Notes: generated by a model not told the origin, from the sequence alone. 64,000 bases of DNA from Desulfococcus multivorans (GCF_001854245.1 NZ_CP015381.1:1895001-1959000), one strand, 5' to 3'. Shown: positions 1 to 16,984, numbered from the stretch's first letter. Translations and numbers: made by a program.

Positions 1-543
1 TTTTCCCGGCTGCGGGGAATGCGGTGTTTGCAAAAATTCTACTGCTTTCGGACAGCCTCAGCCGCAGCGGCCGAGTGTTGCATGCAGATGATAAAAGCGA
101 TGACGGAAGGGGCGGGAGAAACGGTATTCCGAATCATTTTTCGAGAGCGCAACCGGCAGTCTGATCGGCTGTTTCGAAACCATAACGTCAATATAATTTT
201 GGGGGGGACGGTTGTCTATAAGGAAAAGTGTGCTCATATTATTCTTTATAAAAAAAGCGCTTGGCTGTTCCATGAGAAAAAAAGCGTGTCAAACGGCATT
301 GGAAACCGTCTTTGGCCATACTCAGACCGACAGATTCCCGCGCCTCCAAGACACAACGCAATTTATTTCATCTTCTTCCGGTTAACTTCAAATACGCTGC
401 CGTCATCATCATCCGGGGCTTGCAGCAGAATTCCGCTTCAAGCGGTTATCCAAAAACCATCCTTCAACCATTCTATACACTGTAGGCGTGTCGGGAAGTT
501 CCGATTATCTCAATCATCAATCCTTAAACCGTGTGGATGCGAT
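1..543. other. Non-coding leader upstream of the CIS operon
   Basis: I see no convincing gene here. The frame of the first CIS gene stays open upstream to about position 19, but that stretch has irregular composition and no family resemblance. The segment is more AT-rich than its surroundings, especially at 180-260, so it probably holds the operon promoter, although I found no well-spaced -35/-10 pair that I trust. A short perfect palindrome (CCGCTT-C-AAGCGG) lies near 434-446. The rest of a larger CIS locus, if any, would have to lie left of the window. Confidence 0.5.
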
Positions 544-1218
544 ATGATTGAACGTATTGACAGAAAACTGACGGAATGGGTCGGCGATATCCTGGGAGAC
601 GTGAAGGTCTGGTTGGGCGCGCCGGAGAAAAAGGACACCGACACCGTCGGGGTCTACCTGACGGATATTCTGCCGTCGTCTCCGGCCCACGTCACCCGCA
701 GGGCGCCCCTGCAGGTGATGCTGTGCTACCTGTTGACCGTCTGGTCCGAAGAGCCTCTGGAAGCCCACAAGATGTTGAGCCGACTGCTTTTCGCCGCGAT
801 GGAGCACCCCGAATTCGAGGTGGATCTGGCGGAGGTGCCCGCCCAGACGTGGTCCGCATTCGGGATCAAGCCCCGCCCCTCGTTCAAGATCCGGCTTCCC
901 CTGCGCGTCGAACGGACGGACCTCACGACGCACAGGGTCAGGGGCCCGATGGAGATTCGCCGCACCTCGATTTCCGCGATGGAGGGGATCGTGATCGGGC
1001 CGGCGGACCAGCCCATCGACAACGCCCGCATCTCCCTCCCCGCCTGCAAACTCATCACGACCACCGATTCCCGCGGCCGGTTCGCTTTCGAAAGCGTCCC
1101 GTTGCTTTCCCAGGGGATGTTGAAGCTCCATGTGGAGGCTCGGGGACGAGAGGTGGTCAGGGAGATTGCGTCAACGGAGATGATTGAAGAAAAGTTGATT
1201 ATCCACATCGATTTATAG
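544..1218 (+). CDS. CIS tail-terminator protein, DUF4255 (Pvc16/Afp16-like) with C-terminal beta-sandwich
   Basis: This 224-residue protein resembles the DUF4255/Pvc16_N family, which caps the distal end of the sheath and tube in Afp/PVC-type particles. The N-terminal 140 residues carry the family pattern: a short beta strand (VGVYLTDILPSSPAH), a helix (LQVMLCYLLTVW) and a helix describing ordered multimers (EAHKMLSRLLFAAMEHPEF). Residues about 145-224 look like a carboxypeptidase-regulatory-type beta-sandwich (EGIVIGPADQPIDNARISL...TTTDSRGRFAFESVP), a domain often appended to this family. The ATG at 544 was chosen because the upstream reading frame lacks family character; the ribosome site is weak. 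The sheath gene starts 9 bases after its stop. In many related clusters this gene sits at one end of the operon, as here. Confidence 0.8.
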   Translation: MIERIDRKLTEWVGDILGDVKVWLGAPEKKDTDTVGVYLTDILPSSPAHVTRRAPLQVMLCYLLTVWSEEPLEAHKMLSRLLFAAMEHPEFEVDLAEVPAQTWSAFGIKPRPSFKIRLPLRVERTDLTTHRVRGPMEIRRTSISAMEGIVIGPADQPIDNARISLPACKLITTTDSRGRFAFESVPLLSQGMLKLHVEARGREVVREIASTEMIEEKLIIHIDL

Positions 1219-1227
1219 GAGGTTGAC

Positions 1228-2451
1228 ATGCCAACCTACATGACACCCGGCATCTACATCGAGGAGGTGGCCACAGGTGCGAAGCGGATCATGCCCGTAG
1301 GTACCAGCACCGCCGCCTTTCTGGGGGAGGCGCCCTATGCCGACGCCTACCTCAACGAACCCGTCGCCATCAACAACCCGTCACAGTTCATCCGTAAATT
1401 CACCAAACAGGATTCCCCCGGCACCGACCTCGCCCGGGCCGTAATGGGCTTTTTCGCCAACGGCGGTTCGCGGTGCTATGTCCTCAACGTCGGCAGTGGG
1501 AACCCCATCGCCGGAGATCCACGGCGCCGTGAGGGCATTGCGGCGCTGGAAACCGTCGACGAGGCGAAAATCATCGCGGCGCCCGGATATGCCGATCCGC
1601 TCTCCTATGAGGCTATCATCACCCATTGCGAAAAGATGGGGGACCGCTTCGCCATCCTTGACGCCCCGGCGGAGGTGGATGACATCGACCTTCTCAAGAA
1701 GGTGTGCACATCGGGATCCCTCTCCGATGGAGAGCAGAGCGGCGAAAAATCAGGACTTCGGGCTCGTGAGACGGTCTCTGCCGCCTACTATTTCCCGTGG
1801 ATTGAAGCGCCGGATCCCTTTGACCCCAAAAAAATCGTCAGAACACCGCCCTCCGGTCATGTCGCGGGCATCTATGCCAGAACCGACGCCCGGCGAGGGG
1901 TTCACAAAGCCCCTGCCAACGAAGTGGTTCGGGGGGCGCTGGACCTCGTGTACAAGGTCACGCGGGAGGAGCAGGGCGAACTCAACCGTGCCGGCGTCAA
2001 CTGCATTCGCTTTTTCCCCGATGCCGGTATTCGCGTGTGGGGCGCCCGGACGTTGGCCGGCGAGTCGAGCGAGTGGCGCTACATCAATGTCCGTCGCCTC
2101 TTCAATATGATCGAGGAATCCATCGACGCCGGGACGCGCTGGGTTGTCTTCGAACCCAATGACGCTCGGAGCTGGAAAACCATCGAGAGGAACGTTCGGG
2201 CATTTTTGACGACCGTATGGCGCGACGGCGCCCTGAAGGGAGACTCCCCTGAAAAGGCGTTTTTCGTGAAATGCGACGAGGAGACCAATCCGCCTGATGT
2301 CATCGACGCCGGAAGACTGGTGACGGAGATCGGGATCGCTCCTGTCAAGCCTGCAGAATTTATCATCTTCCGCATTGGTCAATGGATCGGCGGTGCCGGA
2401 ACCGAAGAAGCGGCGGCGGGCGGCGGACAAACCGAAAGTGAAGGAGGATGA
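1228..2451 (+). CDS. CIS contractile tail sheath protein
   Basis: The 407-residue product is a phage-tail-sheath family protein that would polymerise around the inner tube and contract to drive it outward. The N-terminus has the classic sheath start (TYMTPGIYIEEV, then VGTSTAAFLGEAP). The C-terminal domain has the signature for sheath interlocking (YINVRRLFNMIEESID, RWVVFEPND, then an NPPDVIDAGRLVTEIGIAPVKPAEFIIFRI stretch described here only by its ends). A strong AGGAGG site lies 5 bases before the ATG. Only one sheath gene is present, unlike Afp/PVC loci with two or three paralogues. The last 20 residues are a Gly/Ala/Glu-rich tail. Confidence 0.95.
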   Translation: MPTYMTPGIYIEEVATGAKRIMPVGTSTAAFLGEAPYADAYLNEPVAINNPSQFIRKFTKQDSPGTDLARAVMGFFANGGSRCYVLNVGSGNPIAGDPRRREGIAALETVDEAKIIAAPGYADPLSYEAIITHCEKMGDRFAILDAPAEVDDIDLLKKVCTSGSLSDGEQSGEKSGLRARETVSAAYYFPWIEAPDPFDPKKIVRTPPSGHVAGIYARTDARRGVHKAPANEVVRGALDLVYKVTREEQGELNRAGVNCIRFFPDAGIRVWGARTLAGESSEWRYINVRRLFNMIEESIDAGTRWVVFEPNDARSWKTIERNVRAFLTTVWRDGALKGDSPEKAFFVKCDEETNPPDVIDAGRLVTEIGIAPVKPAEFIIFRIGQWIGGAGTEEAAAGGGQTESEGG

Positions 2452-2453
2452 TC

Positions 2454-2882
2454 ATGCCGGATATGGATATCTATCGGTCATATAATTTCGTGTTGGACAT
2501 CCAGAACGTAACGGTGGGGTATTTCACCGAGGTCAGCGGATTGAGCGTCTCGGTGGAGGCGATTTCGTACCGGGAAGGAGGCGGCGCGGCAGCGGTCCGG
2601 AAACTGCCGGGAAGGGTGGAATACGGCGACGTGACCCTCAAATGGGGAATGAGCGATTCCACCGAACTCTGGACCTGGCTGATGAGTGCGGCTGCCGGAA
2701 ACGTCGAGAGAAAGGAGATCTCGATCATTCTTCTGAAGCCGGATGGGCAACAGGAGAATACCCGCTGGAATCTCCATAGCTGCTGGCCGAGGGCATGGCG
2801 CGGGGCAAGGTTGGATGCCCTTGGGCAGGAGGTTGCCTATGAAACCCTTACCCTGGTCCATGAAGGGATTGAGCGGGCATGA
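2454..2882 (+). CDS. CIS inner tube protein (gp19/Afp1-like)
   Basis: A 142-residue phage tail tube protein of the T4 gp19-like family, expected to form hexameric rings making the inner tube. Visible family features are the start (YRSYNFVLDIQNVTVGYFTEVSGLS), the EAISYREGG strand and the C-terminal WNLHSCWPRAWRGARLDALG segment with the AYETLTLVHEGI ending. The ATG at 2454 is preferred over the one at 2448 because GGAGG at 2442-2446 is properly spaced only from 2454. The next gene overlaps its stop by ATGA. Confidence 0.93.
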   Translation: MPDMDIYRSYNFVLDIQNVTVGYFTEVSGLSVSVEAISYREGGGAAAVRKLPGRVEYGDVTLKWGMSDSTELWTWLMSAAAGNVERKEISIILLKPDGQQENTRWNLHSCWPRAWRGARLDALGQEVAYETLTLVHEGIERA

Positions 2883-4240
2883 CGGCCGACTCCCTTCGAA
2901 AACTGCTGTTTGCCGCAGTCCTTGCCGTTCACCGCGGTATTTTCGGTCTGGCCCGGAGACTGACCGAGATCGACGAGAGGAAGAAGTCGGGTTTTGAGAA
3001 AAGATCCGTCGACCCTGATAAGCCTCCTGCCGCGATGCTTCCGACCGAAGAAGCTACCGGAGGACCGCCCAGGCACTGGGTCGACCGGGTGAGTCGGTAT
3101 GCACCCGAACTGCTGCTGCCGCCCATACGGGGCGAAGTGTTTCATGATCGGTCTGCCTTCGGGCGAGCAGAGCGGGCAGAGGGTGATCTGCCCGGGAAGA
3201 TGGGGGACCACGGGGTCGAAGCGCTGTCGGTTTCAGGCGATGACGGCGGGCGGAAAGACGGAATGGCTGAGGAGCGCGGGAGGATATTCAAAGAGGATCG
3301 CGGATCGGATATCGGCCGGGAACGCTTTTCGGAACACGCGATCCGGATCCCCCAAAAACCGGAACAGACCCTTGGGAAAAGCGCTGTCCCACTGAATGCC
3401 GTGACGGGAACGAGTGCCGGCCGAGGACCTGTATCCACGCCGGAAATCCAAGCGGAGCAAACGTCATCACCTTACAGCCCGGACAACGACGGGACGAGAG
3501 ATGAGAGTTGGGATCGGTCGGGCGATGAAAGCCGTCGGTGGAATCCGAAACTTGTCTCAGCCCTGAGTTCGGAGGGAATGTCCGTCTCGCGGCGGCATAT
3601 AACCGGTTCGCCGTCCGCCGAGGCATCGGGGCATGACGCCGATGTCTCAAGGGCGCAGGCCGGCACGACAAAAAGCGTTTTTGTCGAGGACGGGGAATCC
3701 CCTTCGGCGGAACCTGATAACCGGAGATCCGCCGATGCCTTGAAAAAGAACGGTGCGCTTCCAACGGCCGCAAGGTTTCACCGGCGCCGGCGGGAGGCAC
3801 CGGCGGACGCTGAACGAATTTCACGCCTCAGTCCGTCCGGGAAAGCGTCGAAAGAGTTTCACGACGATGAAAAGATCTTCCCGGGATCCGAAGCGAACAT
3901 CGTTTTGATTCACACGGAGGCCGACGAAAACGGGCGAGCGGACCCGATATCGATGCACCACGGTCGATCGGATGCAGAGCCCGGCGGCCGGGACGACGGT
4001 GCTGTCCAATTCGAAGACCGGCCTTGGCCCCGGCTGCCGGACGAGGAGCCCATCAGGAGCGGCGCCGATGATCGATCCGGTCTCTGGCCCCTGCTGCTCG
4101 ATGAAACCCAGACACGGGGGAGGAAGCATGAGGACCGGGCGGCGCGTGAAGCCTTCAGGACGGCGCTCCGCGAGCATGTTCGGCTGCAGCGGCTCGAAAA
4201 AGAACAGGAGGGGGAAATATGGAACGCGTGGCCTTTTTGA
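2879..4240 (+). CDS. Long, mostly disordered CIS operon protein of unknown function
   Basis: I do not recognise this 453-residue protein. It starts on an ATGA overlap with the tube gene and overlaps the hub gene by 22 bases, so it is translated as part of the CIS operon. Residues 1-35 form a likely amphipathic helix (SLRKLLFAAVLAVHRGIFGLARR), followed by a short ordered motif (PPRHWVDRVSRYAPELLLPP, residues about 63-82). Residues about 85-400 are rich in Arg, Asp, Glu, Ser, Gly and Pro and look disordered. The last 35 residues are a charged helix ending in WNAWPF. In Afp/PVC loci this position holds the small Afp6 protein. It could be an enlarged Afp6 equivalent, an assembly chaperone, a divergent tape measure or a cargo; none is demonstrated. 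Confidence 0.55.
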   Translation: MTADSLRKLLFAAVLAVHRGIFGLARRLTEIDERKKSGFEKRSVDPDKPPAAMLPTEEATGGPPRHWVDRVSRYAPELLLPPIRGEVFHDRSAFGRAERAEGDLPGKMGDHGVEALSVSGDDGGRKDGMAEERGRIFKEDRGSDIGRERFSEHAIRIPQKPEQTLGKSAVPLNAVTGTSAGRGPVSTPEIQAEQTSSPYSPDNDGTRDESWDRSGDESRRWNPKLVSALSSEGMSVSRRHITGSPSAEASGHDADVSRAQAGTTKSVFVEDGESPSAEPDNRRSADALKKNGALPTAARFHRRRREAPADAERISRLSPSGKASKEFHDDEKIFPGSEANIVLIHTEADENGRADPISMHHGRSDAEPGGRDDGAVQFEDRPWPRLPDEEPIRSGADDRSGLWPLLLDETQTRGRKHEDRAAREAFRTALREHVRLQRLEKEQEGEIWNAWPF

Positions 4241-4926
4241 TCGAGAGGACTGGTGAGCGGATCGGGTGCCTGCTGAATCCCGAGAGCCTCCTGTTTCGTC
4301 GCCAAGCCGGCGTCGTCACCCGGCATGACGCCGGCGGCATCGCAGCCGGTACGGGCCGGTACGACGATCAATTGCTCTGTCGCGGCGGCGGCCTTACCGA
4401 GTTGACCTTCAACCTGCTTTTCGATGTTTCGCTGGCGGGCTCGTCCGGCTCGTCCATGAGCGTGAACGACGTTAGGGACCTGACAGGACCCATCTGGCGG
4501 CTTTCCGAGAACAGCGCCGACGGCACCCCCCCCATATGCCGCTTTGTGTGGGGCAAGAGCTGGCATCTGCCCGGTATCATCACATCCGTTGCCGAGCGAT
4601 TTGAATATTTCAATGCCGACGGTGTGCCCCGGCGGTCCTGGATGCGGTTACGCTTTCGTCGAGTTGCCGAACCCGTGGCGCCGTCGGTCCCTGAACGTCG
4701 GGCGGTCGCCGACGGGGTGACGGGTCCTTACGGGTCAACGCGCCCACTTGAATCCCACGAGGTGAAGGGAAATGAACGACCGGACCAGATCGCCGCCCAA
4801 TGCTACGGCGACCCCTCGCTGGTGCGGGCCCTGATGGCCCACAACAACATCGACGACCCCCTTCATATGCCGGCTGGGAAGATGCTCGACATTCCACCCC
4901 TGGAGAAACTGGAGGCACTGTTGTGA
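4219..4926 (+). CDS. CIS baseplate hub protein with LysM domain (Afp7-like)
   Basis: A 235-residue protein with the two-part layout of Afp7/Pvc7. Residues 1-155 match the contractile-injection-system tube/hub N-terminal type (ERVAFLIERTGERIGCLLNP at the start, then RGGGLTELTFNLLFD and PPICRFVWGKSWHLPGIITSV). Residues about 178-233 form a LysM-like motif (ERPDQIAAQCYGDPSLVRAL, IDDPLHMPAGKMLDIPP). The protein is expected to adapt the inner tube to the spike at the baseplate centre; the LysM in this family is structural rather than proven to bind peptidoglycan. Its stop overlaps the GTG start of the spike gene (GTGA). Confidence 0.9.
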   Translation: MERVAFLIERTGERIGCLLNPESLLFRRQAGVVTRHDAGGIAAGTGRYDDQLLCRGGGLTELTFNLLFDVSLAGSSGSSMSVNDVRDLTGPIWRLSENSADGTPPICRFVWGKSWHLPGIITSVAERFEYFNADGVPRRSWMRLRFRRVAEPVAPSVPERRAVADGVTGPYGSTRPLESHEVKGNERPDQIAAQCYGDPSLVRALMAHNNIDDPLHMPAGKMLDIPPLEKLEALL

Positions 4927-6494
4927 GCGCCCCTGCCGTCATCCCCGCCGTGACCGTTGAGATGGACGGGCTCCGTCTTGCGGAATCGGATGTCCGGTCC
5001 ATGGGCGAGGTCCGCGTTTACCAGGCACTCTCTCTTCCGACGGTGTGCGAACTGGCCTTTTACGAGCCTGAAGGCGCCGTGGTCGGCGCCGCCGCAGTGG
5101 GGCCGGGCACCGCCCTTCGCATTCGCGTCGAAGGTCTCGACCCGTTCCTTTTCGAGGGTGAACTCACGGCGGTGGAATACGATTACGGCCCGGGAGGGGA
5201 GCGGCGGGTCTACATGAGGGGGTATGATATGCTTCACCGGCTGCGAAAGCGTCAGCCGGTCCGATCCCACGTACAGGTCAATTTCGTCGAGCTGGCGCGG
5301 ACCCTGGTTTCAGACCTCGGGTTTTCGGTGTCGACCGTCGACCCCGGTCCGGTTTGGCAGGAGCTCTTCCAGTACGGTCAGTCGGATCTGGATCTCCTGG
5401 CGGAGATCGGCGAGCGATGCGGCCAGTATTTCACCCTCCGGGGATCGGCTTTGCACCTGACGACCCTGGACGGTTTTGGTACGGCCCTTCCCCTTGAGCT
5501 GGGAGCCGCTTTGATCGAAGCCCGTGTCGAGATCAATGCGGAAACCGCCTGCCGGATCGTCGAAGCCCGGGGGTGGGACCCCCATCGGGCGACGCCGGTC
5601 GTCGGATCCGCCAGTCGGGCGCGTATCGGGCGGAACGTCCCGGCAGCGGTCTTTCCCGAGCAGGTCGGCGGATTGCCCCGACGCACCCTTGTCGATACGC
5701 CGGTTCAGGAAGATCTCCATGCCGAAGGCATTGCTCAGGCCGAGTTGGATCGGCGGGCTGCCCGGGAAGTCGTTTTCCGGGGAATCGCCGAGGGCGACGC
5801 AAGACTGAGACCCGGCACCCCCGTCGATGTTTCGGGGGTGGCGCCGCACCTGGCGGGGCGTTACGTACTCACGGCGGTGCGTCATATCATCGATCGGCGG
5901 AAGGGGTACGTTTCGGAACTGGATACATCGCCCCCGCCCGGTCGCTTTCACGCCCGCGGCACTTCGGCCACCCTTGGGGTGGTCAGCCGTGTCGACGATC
6001 CCGAGGGGATGGGGCGTGTCCGTGTCGTGCTGCCCAATTACGGCGATGTCGAAGCCGGATGGTTCAACGTGGTAAGCCCCGGCGCCGGGCCGGGCAAGGG
6101 GATGATGGCGCTTCCCGACGTCAACGACCGGGTGCTGGTGGTCCTCATTAACGGCGACCCTGCCCAGGGTGTCGTTATCGGGGGGCTTTACAGTCTTTCC
6201 GCCCCCCTGGATACCGGGGTTTCGGACGGGGCCGTTCGACGCTTCAGCGTAATGACGCCCGGCGGCCTTCGCGTTCGGCTCGATGACGAAACAAAGACGG
6301 TGGATGTCGAAAACGGAGAAGGCGACCGTATCGCGATGTCGCCGGAAGAGATTCTCATGGCCGACAGCCGCGGGAGTCACATAACGCTTTCGACGGGAAA
6401 GTGCAGAATCGTCTCGACGGCCGATCTCGACATCTCCGCTCCCGGAAGAAAGGTCACCATCAGCGGCAATCATATCGATTTTGAGAGGTCATGA
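4923..6494 (+). CDS. CIS central spike protein (VgrG / gp5-gp27-like, Afp8)
   Basis: This 523-residue protein matches the Rhs/VgrG spike family: a gp27-like hub domain (residues about 1-330; SDLDLLAEIGERCGQYFTLR is typical), then a gp5-type OB fold (LGVVSRVDDPEGMGRVRVVL and GWFNVVSPGAGPGKGMMALP, DVNDRVLVVLINGDPAQGVV), then a short beta-helix-like tail (ISAPGRKVTISGNHIDFE). It would form the trimeric puncturing spike. The start is taken as GTG 4923, overlapping the hub stop as GTGA; the frame is open further upstream but that part only shadows the LysM coding. The C-terminus carries no recognisable effector domain. Confidence 0.92.
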   Translation: MSAPAVIPAVTVEMDGLRLAESDVRSMGEVRVYQALSLPTVCELAFYEPEGAVVGAAAVGPGTALRIRVEGLDPFLFEGELTAVEYDYGPGGERRVYMRGYDMLHRLRKRQPVRSHVQVNFVELARTLVSDLGFSVSTVDPGPVWQELFQYGQSDLDLLAEIGERCGQYFTLRGSALHLTTLDGFGTALPLELGAALIEARVEINAETACRIVEARGWDPHRATPVVGSASRARIGRNVPAAVFPEQVGGLPRRTLVDTPVQEDLHAEGIAQAELDRRAAREVVFRGIAEGDARLRPGTPVDVSGVAPHLAGRYVLTAVRHIIDRRKGYVSELDTSPPPGRFHARGTSATLGVVSRVDDPEGMGRVRVVLPNYGDVEAGWFNVVSPGAGPGKGMMALPDVNDRVLVVLINGDPAQGVVIGGLYSLSAPLDTGVSDGAVRRFSVMTPGGLRVRLDDETKTVDVENGEGDRIAMSPEEILMADSRGSHITLSTGKCRIVSTADLDISAPGRKVTISGNHIDFERS

Positions 6495-6832
6495 TGTATC
6501 TTCTGACGGAAAAAGCGAGGCTGGCCTGCGATCACGACAACGGCACCGTGGCTGTCGAGCCCACCCAGACCCTGGTAACCATCGCGAACGATCGGGTGTT
6601 GGTGGAAACCGACCCTGAGGGGCGTTCCATTTCCGGCTGCCCAAACGTTGCACCGGGGATCAAGGCCTGCGGCCTCACGCTGAAAGTCCGGGAAGGATAC
6701 TCGGACCTGCTTTGCATCGAGGGGCGTCGGATCTGTCTGGATACGGTGACGGGCCTGACCGACGGCACCCCGCCGGGAGCGGTGACCTATACGGTTCGAG
6801 ACCCCGGTCAGGATATCGCAGGAGAGCGCTGA
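6491..6832 (+). CDS. Putative spike-tip / PAAR-like small CIS protein
   Basis: A 113-residue protein in the place where Afp10-like PAAR tip proteins are found, directly after the spike and overlapping it (ATGA, with a second in-frame ATG at 6494). It has two cysteine-containing turns (SGCPNVAPGIKACGLTL and GRRICLDTVTGLTDGTPPGA) but no canonical PAAR repeat, so the assignment rests mainly on position and size. Its stop shares one base with the start of the gp25 gene. An alternative is a baseplate accessory protein. Confidence 0.6.
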   Translation: MMYLLTEKARLACDHDNGTVAVEPTQTLVTIANDRVLVETDPEGRSISGCPNVAPGIKACGLTLKVREGYSDLLCIEGRRICLDTVTGLTDGTPPGAVTYTVRDPGQDIAGER

Positions 6833-7263
6833 TGACATCTTTTGTTTCCCGAAGCATGCGGTTTTTGCACCCGGACTTCGACGAGAGCAGACTGTTTTCC
6901 GGCATCCAGATCGCCAGCACCGGGGGCATCGCCTTGATCTCCGGTGACGCCTCGGTGCGACAGTCGATCCTGATGCTGCTCACCACCACCCCGGGGGAGC
7001 GGGTGATGCGACCCGATTACGGATGCAGCCTCCGGCAGCTGGTGTTTTCGCCCAATGACGCCACCACCCACGGTCTGGCGATATTCTATGTGCGCAGGGC
7101 CATCACCCGATGGGAGCCCCGCGTCGAGATCCTCTTTCTGGATGCCGTGGCGGGTGTCGATGATCCCGAACGGATGGATATCCGCCTGGAGTATCGCCTG
7201 CGGCGAACCGGGCATCGGGAAAGTCTGGTCATACCTGTGTTCATGGCGGAGGACGTATCATGA
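6832..7263 (+). CDS. CIS baseplate wedge protein, GPW/gp25 family (Afp9-like)
   Basis: The 143-residue product fits the gp25-like lysozyme-named but non-enzymatic wedge family. The recognisable features are SGDASVRQSILMLLTTTPGE, the RVMRPDYGCSLRQLVF motif and the following TTHGLAIFYVRRAITRWEPRV helix-strand. It would nucleate sheath assembly at the baseplate. The ATG at 6832 overlaps the previous stop by one base, and its stop overlaps the start of the J-like gene. Confidence 0.93.
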   Translation: MTSFVSRSMRFLHPDFDESRLFSGIQIASTGGIALISGDASVRQSILMLLTTTPGERVMRPDYGCSLRQLVFSPNDATTHGLAIFYVRRAITRWEPRVEILFLDAVAGVDDPERMDIRLEYRLRRTGHRESLVIPVFMAEDVS

Positions 7264-9863
7264 TGTCGATTAAAACCCCCAATCTGGATGATCGACGGTT
7301 TGAGGATCTGGTCGAGGAAGCCCGACGACGGATTGCCCGGCGCTGCCCCGATTGGACGGATCTTTCTCCCGGGGATCCGGGTATGGTGCTTGTCGAAACC
7401 TTTGCCTATCTCACCGATATCCTGCTCTACCGACTGAATCGACTTCCGGAAAAGATCTACATCGAACTTCTCCGTCTCATTGGGCTTCGCCTTCAACCGC
7501 CGTCAGCGGCGAACGTCACGCTTCGCTTTACATTGAACCGGCCCCAGGAACGACCTGTAGAGATCCCCCGGGGGACCCGGGTGACGACCGCGAGGGCCGA
7601 CGCCGGCGTCGAGCCCCCGGTATTCGCGACCCTCGAGACGACTGTCCTCGCCCCCGGCGTCACCATTGCTGAGATCTCCGCGCGCCACTGCGATCTTGTC
7701 GATGCAGAACCGGTCGGTACCGGTACGGGTCTGCCCGGCCTGGTGGTTAACGTCTCTCGCCCTCCGATGATCGCCCCGACAGCAGGATCGAACGACCTGG
7801 TAGTGGGCGTCGAGGCGACGGTCGAGGAGCAGGACAGCCTCTCCGGTCCCTTCGTTTTTCATGAGGGCAGAAGCTTCCGGATCTGGCGGGAGGTGGAGAA
7901 TTTTTCGGGAACCGGTGATGACCGATTCGTCTACACGGTCGACCGGGTGACCGGCGCAATTGTTTTCGCCCCCGCCGCCCGCATGAAAACCGCTGAGGGT
8001 TTTCTGGATAGCGGCGCCGTTGCTTTGGCGGAATTCCCCGCAGCGAATCGGGAGATCCGGATCTGGTACCAGTGCGGCGGCGGTGCAACCGGAAATGTCA
8101 TGGCCCATACGCTGACGACCCTCAAAGATCCGATTCCGGGAATGGCCGTGACCAATCCGCTTCCGGCCACCGGAGGACGGCATGCCGAATCCCTCGAGAA
8201 CGCGCTGCGGCGCGGGCCCCAGGAACTTCATGCGCTTCACCGGGCGGTGACGGCGCGGGATTTCGAACATATTGCCCGGCGATCTTCCGGCGCTGTCGAC
8301 AGGGCCCACGCCATCACCAAGGCGATGCTGTGGTCCTATGCCCGGCCGGGGACGGTGGAAGTGCTGTTGGTACCTCATATTCCCGACCCTGTCCGGGATC
8401 GCGTGACCATCGACGATCTCCACACGCACGAGACCCCGGAAGCCCTCGAACAGATCCAGAAAGCCCTGGACGAACGGAAACCGCTCGGGACGACATGCAT
8501 CGTGAAATGGGTTCACTGCAAGCCGGTCAAGGTTCACGCCCGGCTGGTCGTGTATCGCGAAGAGAATCCCTCTGCCGTGAGAGACCGTGTCCTGGCACGG
8601 CTATGGCGCACCATCAGTCCCCTTTCGACCGCGGGTGACGGCAAGGGATGGCCTTTCGGTCGACCTTTGACGCGTTGGGACATCTACCGGATCATCGATG
8701 AGGAACCGGGCGTGAGCGCCGTGTCGGATATTCGGATGGTGGTCGACGAGGTCCCGGATCGCGATGTCAGCACCATATCGGCCGATGCATACCAGCCTGC
8801 CACCTGGTATGCGGGGGCGGGCGAAAAGGTATTTCGGTCCACCAACATGGGTGACGGGTGGGAGTCGATCGGGCGATTCCCCAATGAACGGGTCGTTGCA
8901 CTGACCTCATTTCCCCGGGAAACGGGTATTCAGGATCGTCCGGGACTTCTTGCCGTCGCCACCCAGATCACCGCGTCTGCCGATGCATCGGCTATCCACA
9001 TCTCACACGACTGCGGGGAGAGCTGGACGGTGGGATTGCGCATGACCTTCAAGGTCGATGCCATGGCCTGGGTGGTAAGAGAGACGGTTCCGGTTCTCCT
9101 CCTTGCGACCGAACGAGGACTCTACGAACTGGCGATCCACGAGCATGCCGAACCTTTCCAGGTGCTGGTGGCCTCTGATCAGCCCTCTCTGGGCTTTTAT
9201 GCGGTGACCGTTTCGACGGACGTCTGGGGAGGGACCAGTGTGGCGCTGGCCGCCCGGGGAGAAAAGGGAATATATCTTTCCGATGAGGGCGGCAAGACCG
9301 AAACGTACCGATGCATCGGTCTCGAGGGGGAAATGGTGCGACGCGTCGCTTTCCAGCACTACGGGGCCCACCGCTACCTGTGGGCCTGCACGGCAGCCAT
9401 TGGGAACGACCCCGGCAGGGCTTGCTTCCGATGGCGGATGACGGGAGCGGAGGAGAACCCGGAGGGATGGCGCCATTTTGACCGGAATTGGAATGGCGGC
9501 GGATGCCGTGAGATCGCGTTTCGAGGCTCGGTGGTGCTGGCGGCCTCCCACCGAAGCGGGGTATTGCGTCTTGATGTCACGGACCCCGAACCTGCATGGG
9601 AGGCACCGACAATTAAATGCAACCTGCCCTTGAGGGGTCCCGAACGTTTGTTCCAGCCTGTCGATGCCCTGGCCGTGGATTCGGCCACGGGTTGCCTGTT
9701 TGCCGGAGGCGTCGAGGGGATCTATCGGAGCCGCGACCAGGGCAATGCTTACGAGCACGTGTCCAGCGGCACATTTGTCGAGCGGGTAACCTTGCCCGGC
9801 ACGTGGCTCTTTTGCTCGGCGGAACACCGTCTGGAGGTGGAAAGCGAAGATGAAATCCAATGA
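7260..9863 (+). CDS. CIS baseplate assembly protein (gp47/J-like, Afp11-like) fused to a BNR/beta-propeller-like C-terminus
   Basis: An 867-residue protein. Residues 1 to about 500 look like the putative baseplate assembly protein (J/gp47-like) found in CIS clusters: DWTDLSPGDPGMVLVETFAY at the N-terminus, ALRRGPQELHALHRAVTARD in the middle, and WPFGRPLTRWDIYRIIDEEP near the end of the core. Residues about 510-860 switch to repeated blades of the BNR/photosystem-assembly type: WYAGAGEKVFRSTNMGDGWE, AIHISHDCGESWTVGLRM, GIYLSDEGGKTETYRCIG and GIYRSRDQGNAYEHVSSGTF. The fusion places a propeller on the baseplate, where it could contact receptor, membrane or tail-fibre partners. It starts on an overlap with gp25; ATG 7263 is an equally possible start. 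Confidence 0.92.
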   Translation: MMSIKTPNLDDRRFEDLVEEARRRIARRCPDWTDLSPGDPGMVLVETFAYLTDILLYRLNRLPEKIYIELLRLIGLRLQPPSAANVTLRFTLNRPQERPVEIPRGTRVTTARADAGVEPPVFATLETTVLAPGVTIAEISARHCDLVDAEPVGTGTGLPGLVVNVSRPPMIAPTAGSNDLVVGVEATVEEQDSLSGPFVFHEGRSFRIWREVENFSGTGDDRFVYTVDRVTGAIVFAPAARMKTAEGFLDSGAVALAEFPAANREIRIWYQCGGGATGNVMAHTLTTLKDPIPGMAVTNPLPATGGRHAESLENALRRGPQELHALHRAVTARDFEHIARRSSGAVDRAHAITKAMLWSYARPGTVEVLLVPHIPDPVRDRVTIDDLHTHETPEALEQIQKALDERKPLGTTCIVKWVHCKPVKVHARLVVYREENPSAVRDRVLARLWRTISPLSTAGDGKGWPFGRPLTRWDIYRIIDEEPGVSAVSDIRMVVDEVPDRDVSTISADAYQPATWYAGAGEKVFRSTNMGDGWESIGRFPNERVVALTSFPRETGIQDRPGLLAVATQITASADASAIHISHDCGESWTVGLRMTFKVDAMAWVVRETVPVLLLATERGLYELAIHEHAEPFQVLVASDQPSLGFYAVTVSTDVWGGTSVALAARGEKGIYLSDEGGKTETYRCIGLEGEMVRRVAFQHYGAHRYLWACTAAIGNDPGRACFRWRMTGAEENPEGWRHFDRNWNGGGCREIAFRGSVVLAASHRSGVLRLDVTDPEPAWEAPTIKCNLPLRGPERLFQPVDALAVDSATGCLFAGGVEGIYRSRDQGNAYEHVSSGTFVERVTLPGTWLFCSAEHRLEVESEDEIQ

Positions 9864-10419
9864 GATCAAGGAATTGTTGCCCCAGCTTTTTCAACGAACC
9901 CTTCGGGACGGCGGCCCTCTGAATGCCCTGTTGGACGTGATGGCGTCGCTCCATGAACCGGTGGAAACGGTGCTGGCGGATCTGGCGACCTTTTTCAATC
10001 CCCGCACCGCACCGGACAAGTTTGTGCCGTATCTCGCCTGCTGGATGGATCTGGATCGTTTTTTCCCCCTCTACTGTGCACAAAACGAGGGATTTCAGCG
10101 CAACGCGGATCCCATCTCCTCGGGCAACGGATCTCTGCGGGAGTTGATCGCATCGGCGGCTTTCCTGTCGCAGTGGCGGGGGACGGCCAAGGGCTTGAAG
10201 CATTTTCTTGAAATCGCCACCGGCGTGGGCGGCTTCCGGTTGCTTGAAAACCTGGACGGGGAGGGGCAGCCGCGTCCGTTCCATGTCTGCATCATAATGC
10301 CGGACGACGCCGAACCGCACCGGGCATTGATCGAGAGAATCGTTGAACAGGAAAAACCGGCCTATGTCTCTTACGAACTCAAGAGCGGGTCGGCCACAGA
10401 GGGAAGGGAGGAGCCATGA
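9850..10419 (+). CDS. CIS tail protein I-like baseplate protein
   Basis: A 189-residue protein like the phage tail protein domain seen in CIS clusters (P2 gpI type). Typical elements are the N-terminal ELLPQLFQ, the central FFNPRTAPDKFVPYLACWMD, and RELIASAAFLSQWRGTAKGL followed by KHFLEIATGVGGF. It is expected to sit at the outer baseplate next to the J-like protein. Its start overlaps the J-like gene by 14 bases and its stop overlaps the membrane PASTA gene by ATGA. Confidence 0.88.
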   Translation: MKSNEIKELLPQLFQRTLRDGGPLNALLDVMASLHEPVETVLADLATFFNPRTAPDKFVPYLACWMDLDRFFPLYCAQNEGFQRNADPISSGNGSLRELIASAAFLSQWRGTAKGLKHFLEIATGVGGFRLLENLDGEGQPRPFHVCIIMPDDAEPHRALIERIVEQEKPAYVSYELKSGSATEGREEP

Positions 10420-11207
10420 GTATCGTTTCCATCAAGGAGGTCAAGGGGGTTGTCAAGTGCGGCAAAGACGGCAGAGCCGCGCATGTTTTCAACGTCAAAA
10501 ACAGCATGGAGACCCGGATTCGGATCTCGACCCAGGTCGCGGCGAACGCACCTGCAGAGACGGCATGGCTCACCATTGAAGGCGAAACCGAACGGGACCT
10601 TGATCCCGACACCATGACCCAGGTTGTCGTCAACATCCAGGTCCCAGACGGCTGCAAACCGGGGAAATACAGCTATCGCCTCCGGGTGTTCGACCCCGAC
10701 AACCCCGGGGAAAAATTTGTGGACGGCGAAAACGTCTACTTCGAGGTGGAGGAGAAGACGCCTGTGCCGCCGCCCGTCGAGAAAAAAAAGCGATGGATTC
10801 CATACGCTGCCGCGGGGATTGTCCTGGTGGTGGTCATCGGCGTCGCCACCTGGATGTTTACGGGGGAAGCCAAGGTCGAAGTGCCGCAGCTGGAGAAGTC
10901 AAGCCTCTTCAACGCGCTTCAGAAGATCAACACCAGCCGGCTGGCATTCAATGCCGAAACCGGCCTTTTTACCCGAAGGGTCGGCAATTCACGGGAGATC
11001 GGCGTTGTTCTGGAACAGCAGCCAAAGGCCGGCGCGTCGGTGCCCGAGAAAACCGAGGTGAAACTCTGGGTGGGCGCCATGAGTCGGGTCACCATAGACA
11101 AGCTGATCCCCATGCAGAGCCTGAGTGAGGTGAAGATGATGAAGCACGTCACCATACCCCAGTCGGTGCTCAATCGTTCCCTGGAACCTGAACCCGTGAA
11201 CAACTGA
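10416..11207 (+). CDS. Single-pass membrane protein with cytoplasmic Ig-like domain and periplasmic PASTA domain, coupled to the CIS operon
   Basis: A 263-residue protein. Residues 1-112 form a predicted beta-sandwich (VFNVKNSMETRIRIS, WLTIEGETERDLDP, GKYSYRLRVFDPDNPGE). After a proline/lysine linker, residues about 128-148 are one hydrophobic helix (WIPYAAAGIVLVVVIGVATW) preceded by EKKKR, so the N-terminus should be cytoplasmic. Residues about 154-220 resemble a PASTA repeat (VEVPQLEKSSLFNALQKI ... VLEQQPKAGASVPEKTEVKL). PASTA domains in other proteins bind peptidoglycan or its precursors. The ATGA overlap with the gpI-like gene implies co-translation with the baseplate. I infer it anchors the CIS baseplate to membrane and wall; it could instead be an unrelated structural protein. 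Confidence 0.75.
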   Translation: MSIVSIKEVKGVVKCGKDGRAAHVFNVKNSMETRIRISTQVAANAPAETAWLTIEGETERDLDPDTMTQVVVNIQVPDGCKPGKYSYRLRVFDPDNPGEKFVDGENVYFEVEEKTPVPPPVEKKKRWIPYAAAGIVLVVVIGVATWMFTGEAKVEVPQLEKSSLFNALQKINTSRLAFNAETGLFTRRVGNSREIGVVLEQQPKAGASVPEKTEVKLWVGAMSRVTIDKLIPMQSLSEVKMMKHVTIPQSVLNRSLEPEPVNN

Positions 11208-11229: not shown

Positions 11230-11928
11230 ATGAGATCCAATAAGATTGTCATCGTCATTCTGGTGCTGCTGGCGGCGGCTTTCGTTGCCGGCGTCGGAAC
11301 GCCGTACCTGACGGGTTCGAAGGACGGGGAGCAGGACATGACCGAGGATGAGGCCGTCGAGGCGGCGAGGGGGCTCATGGATCAATGGGTCGGTTCGCTG
11401 GGCCGGTCCCTCGATTTTCTCAGCCCGGCACTGGACGTCAAACGGCTCACGCCGCCCGCGCCGTGCCGAAGTGGACAGAAGACGTTCCGGCTGACGGGGG
11501 ACACCCCCTGCCTGGTCCGAATATCGAAACGGGACAAGGGGTTCTGGGACTGGACCGATTTCGAGAAAGCGGTGCTGAGGGCCGAAAGGGCCGGGTTGAG
11601 CCTGCAAGTCTGCCGCTGTGAAACATCGGGCGCCGCCGCCCGGGGACCGGGGGTCCGCGTAACCCCCAAGAAACTGTTGAAGGTGTCGGACCGGTTCAAG
11701 TTCCCCACCCACGTCGGTGCCGATATCGCCGTTCAAGGTCGCCCCGAACTGGAGGTCTCCTATTTTCCCAAAGGCAAGACGGTAACCGCGGGTTGCGGCG
11801 GCGGCAAGGTCCAGGTGTGCGAGGTCGTCGACACTGCCGATCTCGTGGTGCTCGATGACGGCGGCATTATCCGTCTGGCCTGTGACGGCTGCACCCCGAC
11901 GACACCGGCCGTCGTCGGCATCGAGTGA
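11230..11928 (+). CDS. Membrane-anchored or secreted Cys-rich protein of unknown function at the end of the CIS operon
   Basis: I do not recognise this 232-residue protein. Residues 6-27 form an N-terminal hydrophobic signal anchor (IVIVILVLLAAAFVAGVG). The exported part has nine cysteines, in APCRSG, TPCLVR, CRC, GCGGG, VCEV and CDGC settings, suggesting disulfides or a metal site in the envelope. It lies 22 bases after the PASTA gene with a modest AGAAGGGGG ribosome site near 11212, so it probably belongs to the same transcript. The gene abuts the convergent membrane protein gene with no space between the stops. Confidence 0.5.
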   Translation: MRSNKIVIVILVLLAAAFVAGVGTPYLTGSKDGEQDMTEDEAVEAARGLMDQWVGSLGRSLDFLSPALDVKRLTPPAPCRSGQKTFRLTGDTPCLVRISKRDKGFWDWTDFEKAVLRAERAGLSLQVCRCETSGAAARGPGVRVTPKKLLKVSDRFKFPTHVGADIAVQGRPELEVSYFPKGKTVTAGCGGGKVQVCEVVDTADLVVLDDGGIIRLACDGCTPTTPAVVGIE

Positions 11929-12588
11929 TCAGGTCACCGATTTGTCCACCCGGAGTGCCTTCAGGATGGCGGGAATCGCCCCGACAAGATAGAAGAGCGC
12001 CCAGATCAAGGTCAACACCGCAATGACGATGGCGCCGATGTCGTCGGTGATGCTGGCCAGAAAGCGGGGAAAGAGCCCGTGCAGGAAGCCCAGGAGGATG
12101 GTGCCGATGAAGGATGTCAGGACGATCAGCACGAGCCCCTTGTTCTCCAGAAATCGCTGGTGGGCCAGCATCATCAACACCGAGAAGCCGAGCTTGAGCG
12201 CCATGGCGAGACTCAGCGTCGCCGCGGCTGCGGTTCTGTCGAACCGTCCGTATTCCTTGAGATAAACAATCGGTCCAAAGGGGATGGCCATCAGGAGGGA
12301 AACCATCAGAAGCAGCAAACCCAGCGCGGCGAAAACCATGGCGACGGATCCGATGAACATGAGGAACGAAAAGAGGAAGGTGACGACGCCCTGAATGCGG
12401 CCGTGGAAACGGTGGGTGATGACCAGGGGGGCGCCTACCAGAAGAATCGTGAACAGCACCAGGGAATCCAGGATGCCGAGGTAGAAGATGCCGCTGACGG
12501 TGAATCCCGACCCCAACTCCACCAGAACGACCAGGAAGATGGCGACAACGGCGGCGATGAAAAATGGTTTTCTCAGTTCGTCAAGCAT
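11929..12588 (-). CDS. Polytopic membrane protein of unknown function
   Basis: A 219-residue protein with about six hydrophobic segments, for example FFIAAVVAIFLVVLVELG, LVLFTILLVGAPLVI, LMFIGSVAMVFAALGLLLLM, LGFSVLMMLA, IVLTSFIGTILLGFLHGLF and IVIAVLTLIWALFYLVGAI. No catalytic motif is evident. The start at 12588 (MLDELRKPF) follows a good purine stretch on the minus strand (AAAGGAACAGGCT). The frame stays open far upstream, but that part is only antisense to the caspase-like gene. The gene is convergent with the CIS operon and divergent from the caspase-like gene, so it has its own promoter in 12589-12738. Confidence 0.65.
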   Translation of the reverse strand: MLDELRKPFFIAAVVAIFLVVLVELGSGFTVSGIFYLGILDSLVLFTILLVGAPLVITHRFHGRIQGVVTFLFSFLMFIGSVAMVFAALGLLLLMVSLLMAIPFGPIVYLKEYGRFDRTAAAATLSLAMALKLGFSVLMMLAHQRFLENKGLVLIVLTSFIGTILLGFLHGLFPRFLASITDDIGAIVIAVLTLIWALFYLVGAIPAILKALRVDKSVT

Positions 12589-12738: not shown

Positions 12739-15543
12739 ATGATAGAATATCTGTACCAAAAGCGTGGGCGTCAAGCCTTTCTGTCGGGTCTGACGGTCGC
12801 TTTTCTGATATTTTTCGGCGCATGCGGCCATATTGACGCCGGGAAAAACGGCGGTTTGACTGCGCGGAATCCCAATGCTCCGGGCATCCTCTGCGGTGGC
12901 GCCGATGTTGTTGAAATCGACGGCCGGCGGCGCCTCGCCCTCATTGTCGGGGTCGGTGAATACAGGAACGACAGAATTCCCGACCTTCCGGGGCCTCCCA
13001 ATGATGCCAGACGGTTTTACGACATGTTGACCGGGAAGAACGGCTACGGCTTTCCCAGGGAAAACGTCTGCATGCTCCTTGATGAAAAAGCGACGACGGC
13101 GGGGTTCAGGGCGGCATTTGACACCATGCTCGTCTCTCGGGCGAGAGAAAACGATGTGGCCGTTGTTTTCTATGCGGGTCACGGATCCCAGGCCCGCGAT
13201 AAAAACGGGGACGAACCCGACGAATGGGATGAGACCTTCCTCTTCCACGACGCACGGACTGACGGCATTGGAGACATGCTGGACGACGAGATGAACCAGA
13301 TGCTGGCGCGGCTGTACCGGAAAACCAGGAACATCACCGTCATTCTCGATGCCTGCAATTCCGGCACGGCGACCCGGGCGCCGGATAAAGGAACCACGCT
13401 CGCACGTTTTTTTACCCCTATGCCGGAAGACCTGAAAAATCCGGCAGCCGAGGGAGAGGGCGGCGACGGCAGTGAGGGGTGGACGACGGAAGCCATGCCG
13501 GGGCTTGTCGTTTTTTCCGCCGCGACGGACAGCAATCCGGCTTTGGAGAAAAACGGCAAGGGCATTTTCACCGACGCCCTGCTCCAGGTTATGTCCGGGG
13601 TGGGGGATCAACCCATGACATACGCTCAGATCGCCCGTCAGGTCCCCGCTCTGGTGGCGGCGGAAAGCCCCCAGATTCCCTACTTCCAAGGAGATCTGAC
13701 CCAAAAGGCCCTGGGCAATACGGGACGGACGCATCCGGTCGCCTGGGAGGTGTCGGCGATCGGTCCGCCCCTCACGCTGACCGGTCCGCCCTTGCCCGGT
13801 ATCGGTAAGGGGGCTGAGATGCGCATCTATGACGGCCGTGTTGAAGGCGCCGACACCCGCGATCCGGGCAAAGCCAAGGCGACCGTCGTGGTGACGGAAA
13901 TGACCGGTTTGAACGCCAGCGCCCTTGTCTCGGCCACCGCGGAGAGCCTCGGCGCAGTTGCGCCGGGTGACCTTGCCGTTCTGGTTCGACCTGCGGATGA
14001 CTACACGACGCTGAAGGTTCGGTTGAAGCCCGGTAGCGAGGTTGGGGGGATCCCCTCGGAAATCGCCCTGAAGATCAGGGCGCTTGTCGCTGAGAATCCC
14101 GAAACCCGTATGCTCGTCCAACTGGTGGAAGGGGCGGGGGACTTCGAGTTGGGCATGATTGACGAAGGCCGACTGGTCTTGCGAGGACCCGAGAACCGCC
14201 CGAGAAATTTTTACCGGAATCCGGATGAGATTCCCAAAAGCCTGTGGCAGCACGCCCGTCAAAAGGCGCTGCTGCATCTGCGGGGAGAGGGCGGCAGCGA
14301 TTTTGTCGACAACCGGACCCTTGCGGTTTCCCTGGTACCCGCGCCCTCTGCCAGGCAGAACAAATGCGCCGACGGCATATGGCGGCAGGCAGCGCCGGGT
14401 GATCACCAGATGATTCCCCTGTGCCAGGCCTGGAACGTCAAGGTCACCCTTTCGAAGGCATCCCCTGTTCCGCTTTTGATCGGCGCACTGATCCTGTCGA
14501 CGGACGGCGGCATTTTCGCGTTGCCCCGGGATGACCGTAAGGTCCGACTCCAGCCCGGCGAAAGCACCGTTTTCAACGCCACCGGCGAGACCTTCATCGG
14601 TTTGCCGCCGCTGGATGTCCGGGACCGCATCATGGTTTTCGGCACATGGGAGAGCAACCCCGTCTCCTGGGGGCAGTTCACCGAGACGGCCGCCGGCCGG
14701 GGCCCTGGAATGAGCGGGCTTGCCCGGGCTCTTGACCGCTATTTCCAACCCGGGACACGAGGGGTCGGTGTCGTCTCGGCGGAATCGGCTGAAACGACGA
14801 CCTGGACCCTCAGCACCATCACTTTGCACGTGGAGGCCAACAATCGCTTTGCCGAGACGGACCGCGGAACCAGGACCATCAACTGGCGCGAGTACACCAT
14901 CGCTGATTTCGACATCCGGCCTTACCTCCCTGCCGATGAAATGACCGCGCTCTACAAAGTCCTGAAAACGGCGGATCGCCTTGCGAACGCTTCGGCCCGG
15001 GACGGCTATTCCTACAGGCAGCACGACTGGACCCAGCCTTCGGACGAGGCGAACCTGAAGCGCGGCATCGACTGCTCCAGGGCCGTCTGGTTCGCTTTCA
15101 CGCGCTCAGGAATACCTTACAACCGGGAGGATAGGTACCTGACCACGGCCATGATGGTCGGCGACGACAGTATCATGGACGACGATTTCGACAGCTGCGC
15201 CGGCGACCCAGACCTCGAGATCGGAGACATCCTGGTCTATCGGGACGAGACCCGGGGCGACGGCCACGCGGTTATGGTCATCGATCCGGAAAAGCGTATT
15301 GCGTGGGGATCCCACGGCTGGGACGGCAACTCCCGCAACCTGCCTGTCGAGCCGGACACCGGCGTGGAGTACCAGAAGATCAAATTCAAGCCGGACTGGG
15401 AGCGGTGGGATCGAGGCTCCATGAAACTCAAAGCCTGCTGGCGACACCGGCGGATTGCCGGGGAGGGAGTGCGCTTCCGCGGCCGGCCGGGCTCACGACC
15501 CCTGACGGATATCTGCAATGCTGAACGAAACTGCGGGCGGTAG
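12739..15543 (+). CDS. Caspase-like (C14) and NlpC/P60-like double cysteine protease, predicted exported
   Basis: A 934-residue protein. Residues 11-30 are a signal sequence ending in FFGAC, a loose lipobox, so it may be a lipoprotein. Residues about 60-340 are a caspase/metacaspase domain: LALIVGVGEYR, DARRFYDML, the catalytic His148 in FYAGHGSQ and Cys206 in ILDACNSGT, with a DEWDETFLFHDA acidic stretch between them. A middle part of about 420 residues contains beta-rich sequence with a DUF4384-like look. The C-terminus (residues about 770-880) has an NlpC/P60-type triad pattern: Cys779 in GIDCSRAVWFAF, His843 in GDGHAVMVID and His859 in WGSHGWD. GGAGG lies 5 bases before the ATG. It opens a block with the small membrane protein, FecR and CHAT genes. 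Confidence 0.85.
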   Translation: MIEYLYQKRGRQAFLSGLTVAFLIFFGACGHIDAGKNGGLTARNPNAPGILCGGADVVEIDGRRRLALIVGVGEYRNDRIPDLPGPPNDARRFYDMLTGKNGYGFPRENVCMLLDEKATTAGFRAAFDTMLVSRARENDVAVVFYAGHGSQARDKNGDEPDEWDETFLFHDARTDGIGDMLDDEMNQMLARLYRKTRNITVILDACNSGTATRAPDKGTTLARFFTPMPEDLKNPAAEGEGGDGSEGWTTEAMPGLVVFSAATDSNPALEKNGKGIFTDALLQVMSGVGDQPMTYAQIARQVPALVAAESPQIPYFQGDLTQKALGNTGRTHPVAWEVSAIGPPLTLTGPPLPGIGKGAEMRIYDGRVEGADTRDPGKAKATVVVTEMTGLNASALVSATAESLGAVAPGDLAVLVRPADDYTTLKVRLKPGSEVGGIPSEIALKIRALVAENPETRMLVQLVEGAGDFELGMIDEGRLVLRGPENRPRNFYRNPDEIPKSLWQHARQKALLHLRGEGGSDFVDNRTLAVSLVPAPSARQNKCADGIWRQAAPGDHQMIPLCQAWNVKVTLSKASPVPLLIGALILSTDGGIFALPRDDRKVRLQPGESTVFNATGETFIGLPPLDVRDRIMVFGTWESNPVSWGQFTETAAGRGPGMSGLARALDRYFQPGTRGVGVVSAESAETTTWTLSTITLHVEANNRFAETDRGTRTINWREYTIADFDIRPYLPADEMTALYKVLKTADRLANASARDGYSYRQHDWTQPSDEANLKRGIDCSRAVWFAFTRSGIPYNREDRYLTTAMMVGDDSIMDDDFDSCAGDPDLEIGDILVYRDETRGDGHAVMVIDPEKRIAWGSHGWDGNSRNLPVEPDTGVEYQKIKFKPDWERWDRGSMKLKACWRHRRIAGEGVRFRGRPGSRPLTDICNAERNCGR

Positions 15544-15933: not shown

Positions 15934-16012
15934 TTGATTCCAGACGCCTCTATTGCTCTTTGTGTATAGAGAACGCTGGCTGTCTGCCTGGACTGCCGGA
16001 AAGGAGAAAGAT

Positions 16013-16984
16013 ATGAAGGCGCTGCGACTTGATGTTAAAAATTTTGGCTTTTTTTGGGGACAGCTGCTGATGGTCGCACTGCTGGCCGGATGCCCTCCCT
16101 TTCCGCAGTCGGACGGTGAATTCGGCGGCCCCTCGTCCGGTGTTGTCGAGATGGATCAGAACACCGATCCCCGTTTTTTTTTTCGTTATCGCCAGGGCGC
16201 CATCGGTCGGATCATGGTGGCCGGCAAAGCGGTTTGGCTTGACGGCAGGAGGCTTGTCCGGGACAGCTACATCCGGAACGGCGCTCACGTCAGCACCGGT
16301 CCCGCCGGCGCCGCCATTATCGAATTTTTTCAATCCGGCGGGATGGAATGCGGGCTCGACATCCGTGAATTCCGCCGCGGGCGGATCTATGGCAGCACCG
16401 ATCGGTGCGGACACATGGTGGTGACGGATCAGGGCGGCATGGAGATGGGAGGATGGCCGGCATCCTACCATGTCGACGTCCGGGACAAAGGCGTGACCAT
16501 CTTCACCGTCATCAACGGCGAGGCCTGGGTCTGGCGCCATGCCGATCCTTCCCGGCGGGTGCCGGTGTCGGGTTACCACCAGGCGGCGCTGTCGCGCACC
16601 CGGATCAGCCCACCGCGCAGCGTCACCCCGGAAGAGGTCGAAGCGATCACCCGATGGCGGGAAAATTTCCAGCGTTTGAGAGATCTGTACCAAAGCCCCC
16701 GGGATAGTAAGCCCCCTCCTGTCGTTTCAGAGCCGGATTTGCTGAACAGAATATTCAGAGATGCATGGAAACTATTCGACAATCCAAGATCGAGGGATCG
16801 TCTTGATCCTCCAGACACGGACACAAAGCCCGGCGTTGATTCGCAAATCCCCGACACCGATACAAAGGTGAAAACGATCCCGACGGTTCCGATAAAACCG
16901 AAAATGGCAACCCCTCTGAAAAGGAGCCCGGCAGTTCCGATAAAACCCTATGGGGTGACCCCTCCGGAACCGAATCTTCGGTGA
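16013..16984 (+). CDS. FecR-domain lipoprotein
   Basis: A 323-residue protein with a strong lipoprotein signal (MVALLAGC, lipobox LAGC). Residues about 60-200 match the FecR domain: GRIMVAGKAVWLDGRRLVRD, NGAHVSTGPAGAAIIEF, then HMVVTDQGG and YHVDVRDKGVTIFTVINGEA. In classic systems FecR passes an outer-membrane signal to a sigma factor, but stand-alone FecR domains like this often sit beside CHAT-domain genes and likely serve as protein-interaction modules in the periplasm. The tail is low-complexity with Pro/Asp/Lys repeats (PDTDTK twice and two VPIKP motifs). AAGGAG lies 7-8 bases before the ATG. Confidence 0.83.
   Translation: MKALRLDVKNFGFFWGQLLMVALLAGCPPFPQSDGEFGGPSSGVVEMDQNTDPRFFFRYRQGAIGRIMVAGKAVWLDGRRLVRDSYIRNGAHVSTGPAGAAIIEFFQSGGMECGLDIREFRRGRIYGSTDRCGHMVVTDQGGMEMGGWPASYHVDVRDKGVTIFTVINGEAWVWRHADPSRRVPVSGYHQAALSRTRISPPRSVTPEEVEAITRWRENFQRLRDLYQSPRDSKPPPVVSEPDLLNRIFRDAWKLFDNPRSRDRLDPPDTDTKPGVDSQIPDTDTKVKTIPTVPIKPKMATPLKRSPAVPIKPYGVTPPEPNLR

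Follow-up and report, generated by a model that had tools for sequence, protein, structure and literature searches.

A putative Ig-TM-PASTA docking adaptor in the tail-fibre slot of a contractile injection system from Desulfococcus multivorans

In the contractile injection system (CIS) of Streptomyces coelicolor, the tail-fibre slot is occupied by CisA (SCO4242), a single-pass membrane protein with its N-terminus inside the cell, which is needed for contraction (PMC12237407). The system also includes Sco4256-4258, proposed effectors that combine a pilus-chaperone-like N-terminus with one transmembrane (TM) helix and, in two of the three, a C-terminal ricin-type domain, and without which the tube lumen is mostly empty (PMC10066040, PMC10020575). 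Membrane attachment has been described elsewhere. The thylakoid CIS of Anabaena (Cis12/Cis13) has a fibre-like anchor, the trimeric fibre Cis13, whose C-terminal TM helix holds the baseplate to the membrane (PMC8894136), while the archaeal T6SS (Hbor_38620) is docked at the cytoplasmic membrane, with a linked 6-TM protein proposed as its anchor (PMC11566945). In the bacterial T6SS, the TssJLM complex docks the contractile tail and the wall is contacted through the peptidoglycan-binding domain of TagL (PMC8253398). The mode of action of such systems has so far been predicted unreliably from sequence alone (PMC12998442). Here we describe a CIS of Desulfococcus multivorans in which a single-pass protein carrying an Ig-like and a PASTA domain probably stands in for the fibre.

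The window analysed is a stretch of 64,000 nucleotides (bases 1895001-1959000 of the 4.46-Mb chromosome), and the CIS cluster lies at its start. On the plus strand it encodes a Pvc16_N cap protein with a carboxypeptidase-regulatory domain (19..1218, Pfam; true start probably near 541), the sheath (1228..2451, Pfam and a PDB match), the tube (2448..2882, Pfam), a poorly conserved protein of no known family (2879..4240), a CIS_tube/LysM hub protein (4219..4926), the spike (gpD/gpV, 4920..6494), a small conserved protein in the tip position between spike and gp25 (6491..6832), a gp25-like wedge protein (6832..7263) recognised from its position and from relatives annotated as GPW/gp25, a J-like baseplate protein equivalent to Cis11 (7260..9863), and a gpI-like baseplate wedge protein equivalent to Cis12 (9850..10419; Pfam Tail_P2_I, 36.2 bits against a cut-off of 20.6). 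With sheath, tube, spike, gp25, J, I and a Pvc16 cap all in one cluster, the locus is a contractile injection system. It does not fall among the Afp/PVC-like eCIS, since no AAA+ ATPase or tail fibre gene was matched in the cluster, at positions where CIS of other types on plasmids have annotated ATP-binding and fibre-like genes; nor does it fall among the T6SS, since none of the TssJLM families was found among the neighbouring proteins scanned. The J-like protein carries a C-terminal extension (about residues 500-867), taken here as the mark of this CIS type, in which several members show Asp-box-like motifs; these motifs, together with a weak 6p2k match, suggest that it is possibly a beta-propeller, and the AlphaFold2 model of J (three sequences) reaches a pLDDT of only 31.

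The gene following gpI overlaps it by ATGA and encodes a protein of 263 residues (10416..11207, plus strand), a putative membrane dock or adaptor, hereafter the anchor. The first-pass annotation had drawn a single interval, 9850-11207, which takes in the gpI gene too; the anchor is 10416-11207 only. Its description of the gene order, the overlap and a beta-domain followed by a TM helix and a PASTA domain is otherwise borne out by Pfam, hydropathy and AlphaFold2. The N-terminal domain (residues 1-114, 10416..10757) is modelled as a beta sandwich spanning residues 4-109, with a pLDDT mostly of 65-80 past the first 20 residues, and its best Foldseek matches are Ig-like folds (FixG-related, RbmA, MSP and pilus chaperones). 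A single strongly hydrophobic segment, residues 131-149 (10806..10862), is preceded by KKKR and modelled as a low-confidence helix (132-149). No N-terminal hydrophobic signal was found in the protein, so an N-in/C-out topology is likely, with the Ig-like domain predicted to be cytoplasmic. The flanking charge bias is clear in most relatives and weak in L052, L053 and Rhodovulum, for which it is a weak guide to topology.

The PASTA domain (residues 154-220, 10875..11075) scores 25.0 bits against the curated PF03793 gathering cut-off of 23.2 (E 1.8e-5) and is the sole PASTA match of the whole genome. The corresponding fold, residues 153-221, is modelled with a pLDDT of about 80, and a profile of seven relatives matches the solved PASTA structures of PknB (2kui, E 5e-11), so that the PASTA similarity proposed from the sequence holds by both curated profile and structure. 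A chance match can be set aside, because the domain is above the Pfam cut-off in 11 of 11 loci (30.5-98.6 bits among relatives) and the family is kept in these 11 loci from three phyla. About 4 residues separate the TM helix from the PASTA domain here, and 4-22 among relatives. Like the PASTA kinases PknB and PrkC, the protein has a single TM helix with PASTA outside the membrane; unlike them, it has no kinase, carries an Ig-like domain inside, and adjoins a CIS baseplate.

Two further membrane proteins follow: a small one, with a TM helix at its N-terminus and a presumed periplasmic part (11230..11928, plus strand), and a 6-TM protein (11929..12588, minus strand). The small protein occupies the same position in all loci; outside Desulfobacterota its homology is supported for Rhodovulum (2.6e-5, independent profile), weak for Deinococcus and positional for Paracoccus. 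With a profile of the 6-TM protein, relatives were recovered from each of the four plasmid loci read. Of the 35 genomes in which a CIS or J was matched, only the seven anchor genomes and one other, G260, have the family, the remaining 27 being without it; a scan of 232 genomes of the order added none. Neither it nor the anchor was matched in the other CIS loci sampled from the phylum or in the second CIS of the D. multivorans genome. By this pattern of co-occurrence, the predicted membrane module is of three proteins (Ig-TM-PASTA, small anchored protein and 6-TM protein) and not the anchor alone.

The survey was dense for one order and thin for one phylum, other phyla being reached through plasmid records only. 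In all 11 loci read that have an extended J, from Desulfobacterota, Deinococcota and Alphaproteobacteria, an Ig-TM-PASTA protein adjoins gpI; the first-pass annotation had asked for the same neighbour in related CIS loci, and it is present throughout. Six further genomes of the order carry anchor relatives, each next to its own CIS, and two of these (G123 and G335) have two PASTA repeats. When 389 genomes of the order were scanned with a J profile, the seven full-length matches fell in the same seven genomes that have Ig-TM-PASTA; as anchor and J are neighbours, this seven-of-seven agreement reflects linkage within one block and not seven independent events. The block is kept down to 22-24% anchor identity, and the ATGA overlap with gpI was seen in three loci.

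On plasmids, query coverage of J reached at least 80% in five records only: Deinococcus sp. AJ005, Rhodovulum sp. MB263, two R. sulfidophilum and Paracoccus sp. MC1862. In the four that were read, a gene annotated as 'PASTA domain-containing protein' lies directly after gpI (one gene further in Deinococcus), and each product has an Ig-like domain, a TM helix and two PASTA repeats. A profile built from the N-terminal part only of the seven Desulfobacterota sequences recovers these four proteins at 1.5e-16 to 3.4e-7, with no other match below E 0.1; the Ig-like domain is therefore homologous in three phyla. The plasmid relatives were reached through the J gene: tblastn with the anchor alone against plasmids gave no match, and scans of IMG/VR returned no anchor relatives.

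Among solved structures, the nearest to the sheath is that of the S. coelicolor CIS (5.8e-110); the J core matches 9gtp_1K (E 3.2e-91), and the sole significant PDB match of gpI is 9gtp_E (2.3e-4). The best PDB matches are 8BKY and 9GTP, as would suit type IId, but the J tree places this CIS as sister to the Streptomyces clade and not inside it. In that tree of 24 proteins, the 11 J from anchor-bearing loci form one clade (100/100); its sister clade contains the CisA-bearing Streptomyces, Deinococcus grandis and D. aquaticus and the cyanobacterial CIS, the two together being supported at 95/95. On two Streptomyces plasmids that were read, the product of the gene after gpI is a zinc-ribbon protein, likewise with a single TM helix. 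Judging from these loci, the fibre slot in this branch of the CIS can hold a single-pass membrane protein, its domains differing by lineage.

A related CIS in G260 shows another arrangement. There, gpI carries a PASTA domain (27.8 bits) fused to its N-terminus, with no TM helix, presumably as a protein-binding module, in the manner of LysM in CIS hubs, and the next gene encodes a different single-pass protein with a CarbopepD_reg-like domain, a TM helix and an Ig-like domain. In cyanobacteria, the N-terminal extension of gpI has an Ig-like look and was considered as a possible fused Ig domain, but this was rejected, the match being too weak (probability 11%).

We consider it probable that the Ig-TM-PASTA protein is a single-pass inner-membrane docking adaptor, standing in the place of the tail fibre and complexed with the small and 6-TM proteins. 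This is the best reading because sheath, J and gpI are closest to those of the Streptomyces CIS, where CisA sits in the same slot and is required for firing. Both proteins are encoded directly downstream of the baseplate genes, have a single TM helix and are N-in/C-out (for the anchor, by prediction), both clusters are without a fibre, and their J proteins belong to sister clades. The cytoplasmic Ig-like domain would receive the baseplate (gpI/J), as suggested by the slot and the gene overlap; the TM helix would lie in the inner membrane with the PASTA domain just outside; and the three proteins together would dock the CIS at the inner membrane of its own cell as one complex. From there the CIS would fire outward, or be triggered by envelope disturbance, in line with the part played by CisA in Streptomyces. 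As ligand of PASTA, lipid II or a muropeptide, or else a partner protein, would be more likely than the sacculus. Membrane docking as such, already proposed in the first-pass annotation, gains support from the two membrane proteins linked to the anchor, from the missing fibre gene and from CisA in the same slot.

There are also differences from the named systems. In CisA, most of the N-terminal part, which includes a Cys-rich segment, is unstructured and the C-terminal domain is solute-binding-like, whereas the anchor has Ig and PASTA; the conserved C-terminal domain and Cys-rich segment of CisA are absent from it, and no 6-TM homologue was found in the Streptomyces loci read. Cis13 of Anabaena has no outer domain and serves the thylakoid, not the envelope. 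The archaeal T6SS shares a linked 6-TM protein but has no PASTA protein; homology between the two 6-TM proteins was considered and rejected, as our profile gave nothing significant in one haloarchaeal CIS locus. TssJLM/TagL likewise joins a docking complex to a wall-related domain, but the families are unrelated and the domain is OmpA-like in T6SS versus PASTA here.

Could the protein instead be a cargo effector, with Ig as loading domain and TM-PASTA acting on the envelope, along the lines suggested for Sco4256-4258? This is the main rival, and we judge it unlikely. An Ig-like N-terminus, one TM helix and a C-terminal domain past it are common to both, and the Ig domains are weakly similar by profile (hhalign probability 64%, 18% identity). 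The layout of Ig, TM and carbohydrate binder thus also occurs in proposed Streptomyces effectors, which counts against the docking adaptor. The resemblance is, however, at fold level only: the Sco4256-like proteins are missed by the N-terminal HMMER profile, have two Ig domains and other C-terminal domains, and are encoded at the opposite end of their cluster, where it is CisA that occupies the slot seen here. Moreover, the C-terminus is PASTA in 11 of 11 anchors, never an enzyme or variable toxin, and an effector role would not account for the 6-TM protein and the small protein linked to the anchor.

A permanent tether on the model of TagL in T6SS, with Ig holding the baseplate and PASTA the peptidoglycan sacculus, appears slightly less likely still. 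PASTA domains are able to bind muropeptides (PMC4632501), and T6SS does employ the peptidoglycan-binding TagL domain (PMC8253398). The two PASTA repeats of several relatives would also suit such a grip. Yet the short spacing after the TM helix keeps PASTA within a few nanometres of the membrane; the diderm sacculus lies further out than that from the inner membrane, so a domain of about 4 nm placed so near would be expected to encounter lipid II or newly made wall. The extracytoplasmic domain of PknB does bind lipid II (PMC6428115). Together with the G260 fusion of PASTA to gpI without a TM helix, this speaks against the earlier proposal that PASTA grips peptidoglycan. Nor is a permanent tether required, because the CisA-dependent Streptomyces particles are mostly seen free-floating, a point that counts against the docking adaptor as well. 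Least probable, and by our estimate quite improbable, is an envelope sensor with no mechanical role, in which PASTA binds a wall precursor and Ig signals to the baseplate while particles stay cytoplasmic until then. In Deinococcus aquaticus a kinase-FHA-Ig-TM protein does adjoin the baseplate genes; in the anchor here, however, neither a kinase nor any other signalling domain occurs, the presence of the 6-TM and small proteins points to a standing complex, and the explanation overlaps with that of the docking adaptor.

No publication linking PASTA with CIS was found among the open-licence papers searched, and a CIS-linked membrane protein set led by a PASTA protein appears to be unreported. 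The impression that a PASTA anchor is an unfamiliar architecture thus stands as far as this literature goes, but CisA is a precedent for a membrane adaptor in this CIS clade. It is quite possible, although tentative, that these loci form a separate transferable CIS class (Desulfobacterota, Alphaproteobacteria and Deinococcota, sometimes plasmid-borne) with its own three-protein membrane complex unrelated to TssJLM, which would be an independent invention of docking where the tail fibre was replaced by a receptor facing the cell's own envelope. CisA has raised the question of how a CIS in the cytoplasm locates the cell's own membrane and fires at it; the module described here would be a diderm version of the answer, in which the adaptor differs and two more membrane proteins are linked to it. 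Since cultured bacteria, namely Rhodovulum sulfidophilum DSM 1374 (A6W98_RS19440), Paracoccus and Deinococcus, carry it on plasmids, docking is open to direct testing, and the module may serve as a genomic marker of membrane-docked CIS.

The gpI-like baseplate protein of genome G260, which has a related CIS, bears a PASTA domain at its own N-terminus, as a PASTA-gpI fusion (L104 9039-9926, minus strand; L-numbers denote the DNA stretches read around CIS loci). The baseplate genes of the Deinococcus aquaticus CIS are adjoined by a gene for a kinase-FHA-Ig-TM protein of 1596 aa (L117 19113-23903, plus strand). In Deinococcus sp. AJ005 gpI is followed by a polytopic protein with an HExxH motif (L107 17049-17966, plus strand) and then by the PASTA gene. 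The second CIS of the source genome (G000:C1, about 2958000-2983000; L054, L055), which is of another type, has neither PASTA anchor nor 6-TM protein.

Lipoprotein-like proteins related to each other, one next to the CIS of the window (15953-16984, plus strand) and one next to that of L008 (13672-14526), gave no Pfam match and, judged by eye, are FecR-like. Nearby, a CHAT-domain protein with TPR repeats (window 17078-19990, plus strand) has a lipoprotein-like N-terminus. The N-terminus of the caspase-domain protein (Peptidase_C14, 82.5 bits; window 12739-15543, plus strand), which carries GHG and DACNSG motifs, is lipobox-like, and in G123, a related genome with an anchor-bearing CIS, a homologue lies directly upstream of the sheath gene (L009 1272-4118). 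This protein is a possible tie between the CIS and cell death or envelope proteolysis. Finally, three genomes encode a CIS-adjacent GH24 phage-type lysozyme with a lipoprotein-like N-terminus (L010 9245-9943, minus strand, upstream of the window; L008 12510-13214; L009 16198-16908), which could open the cell's own wall to let the tube through.
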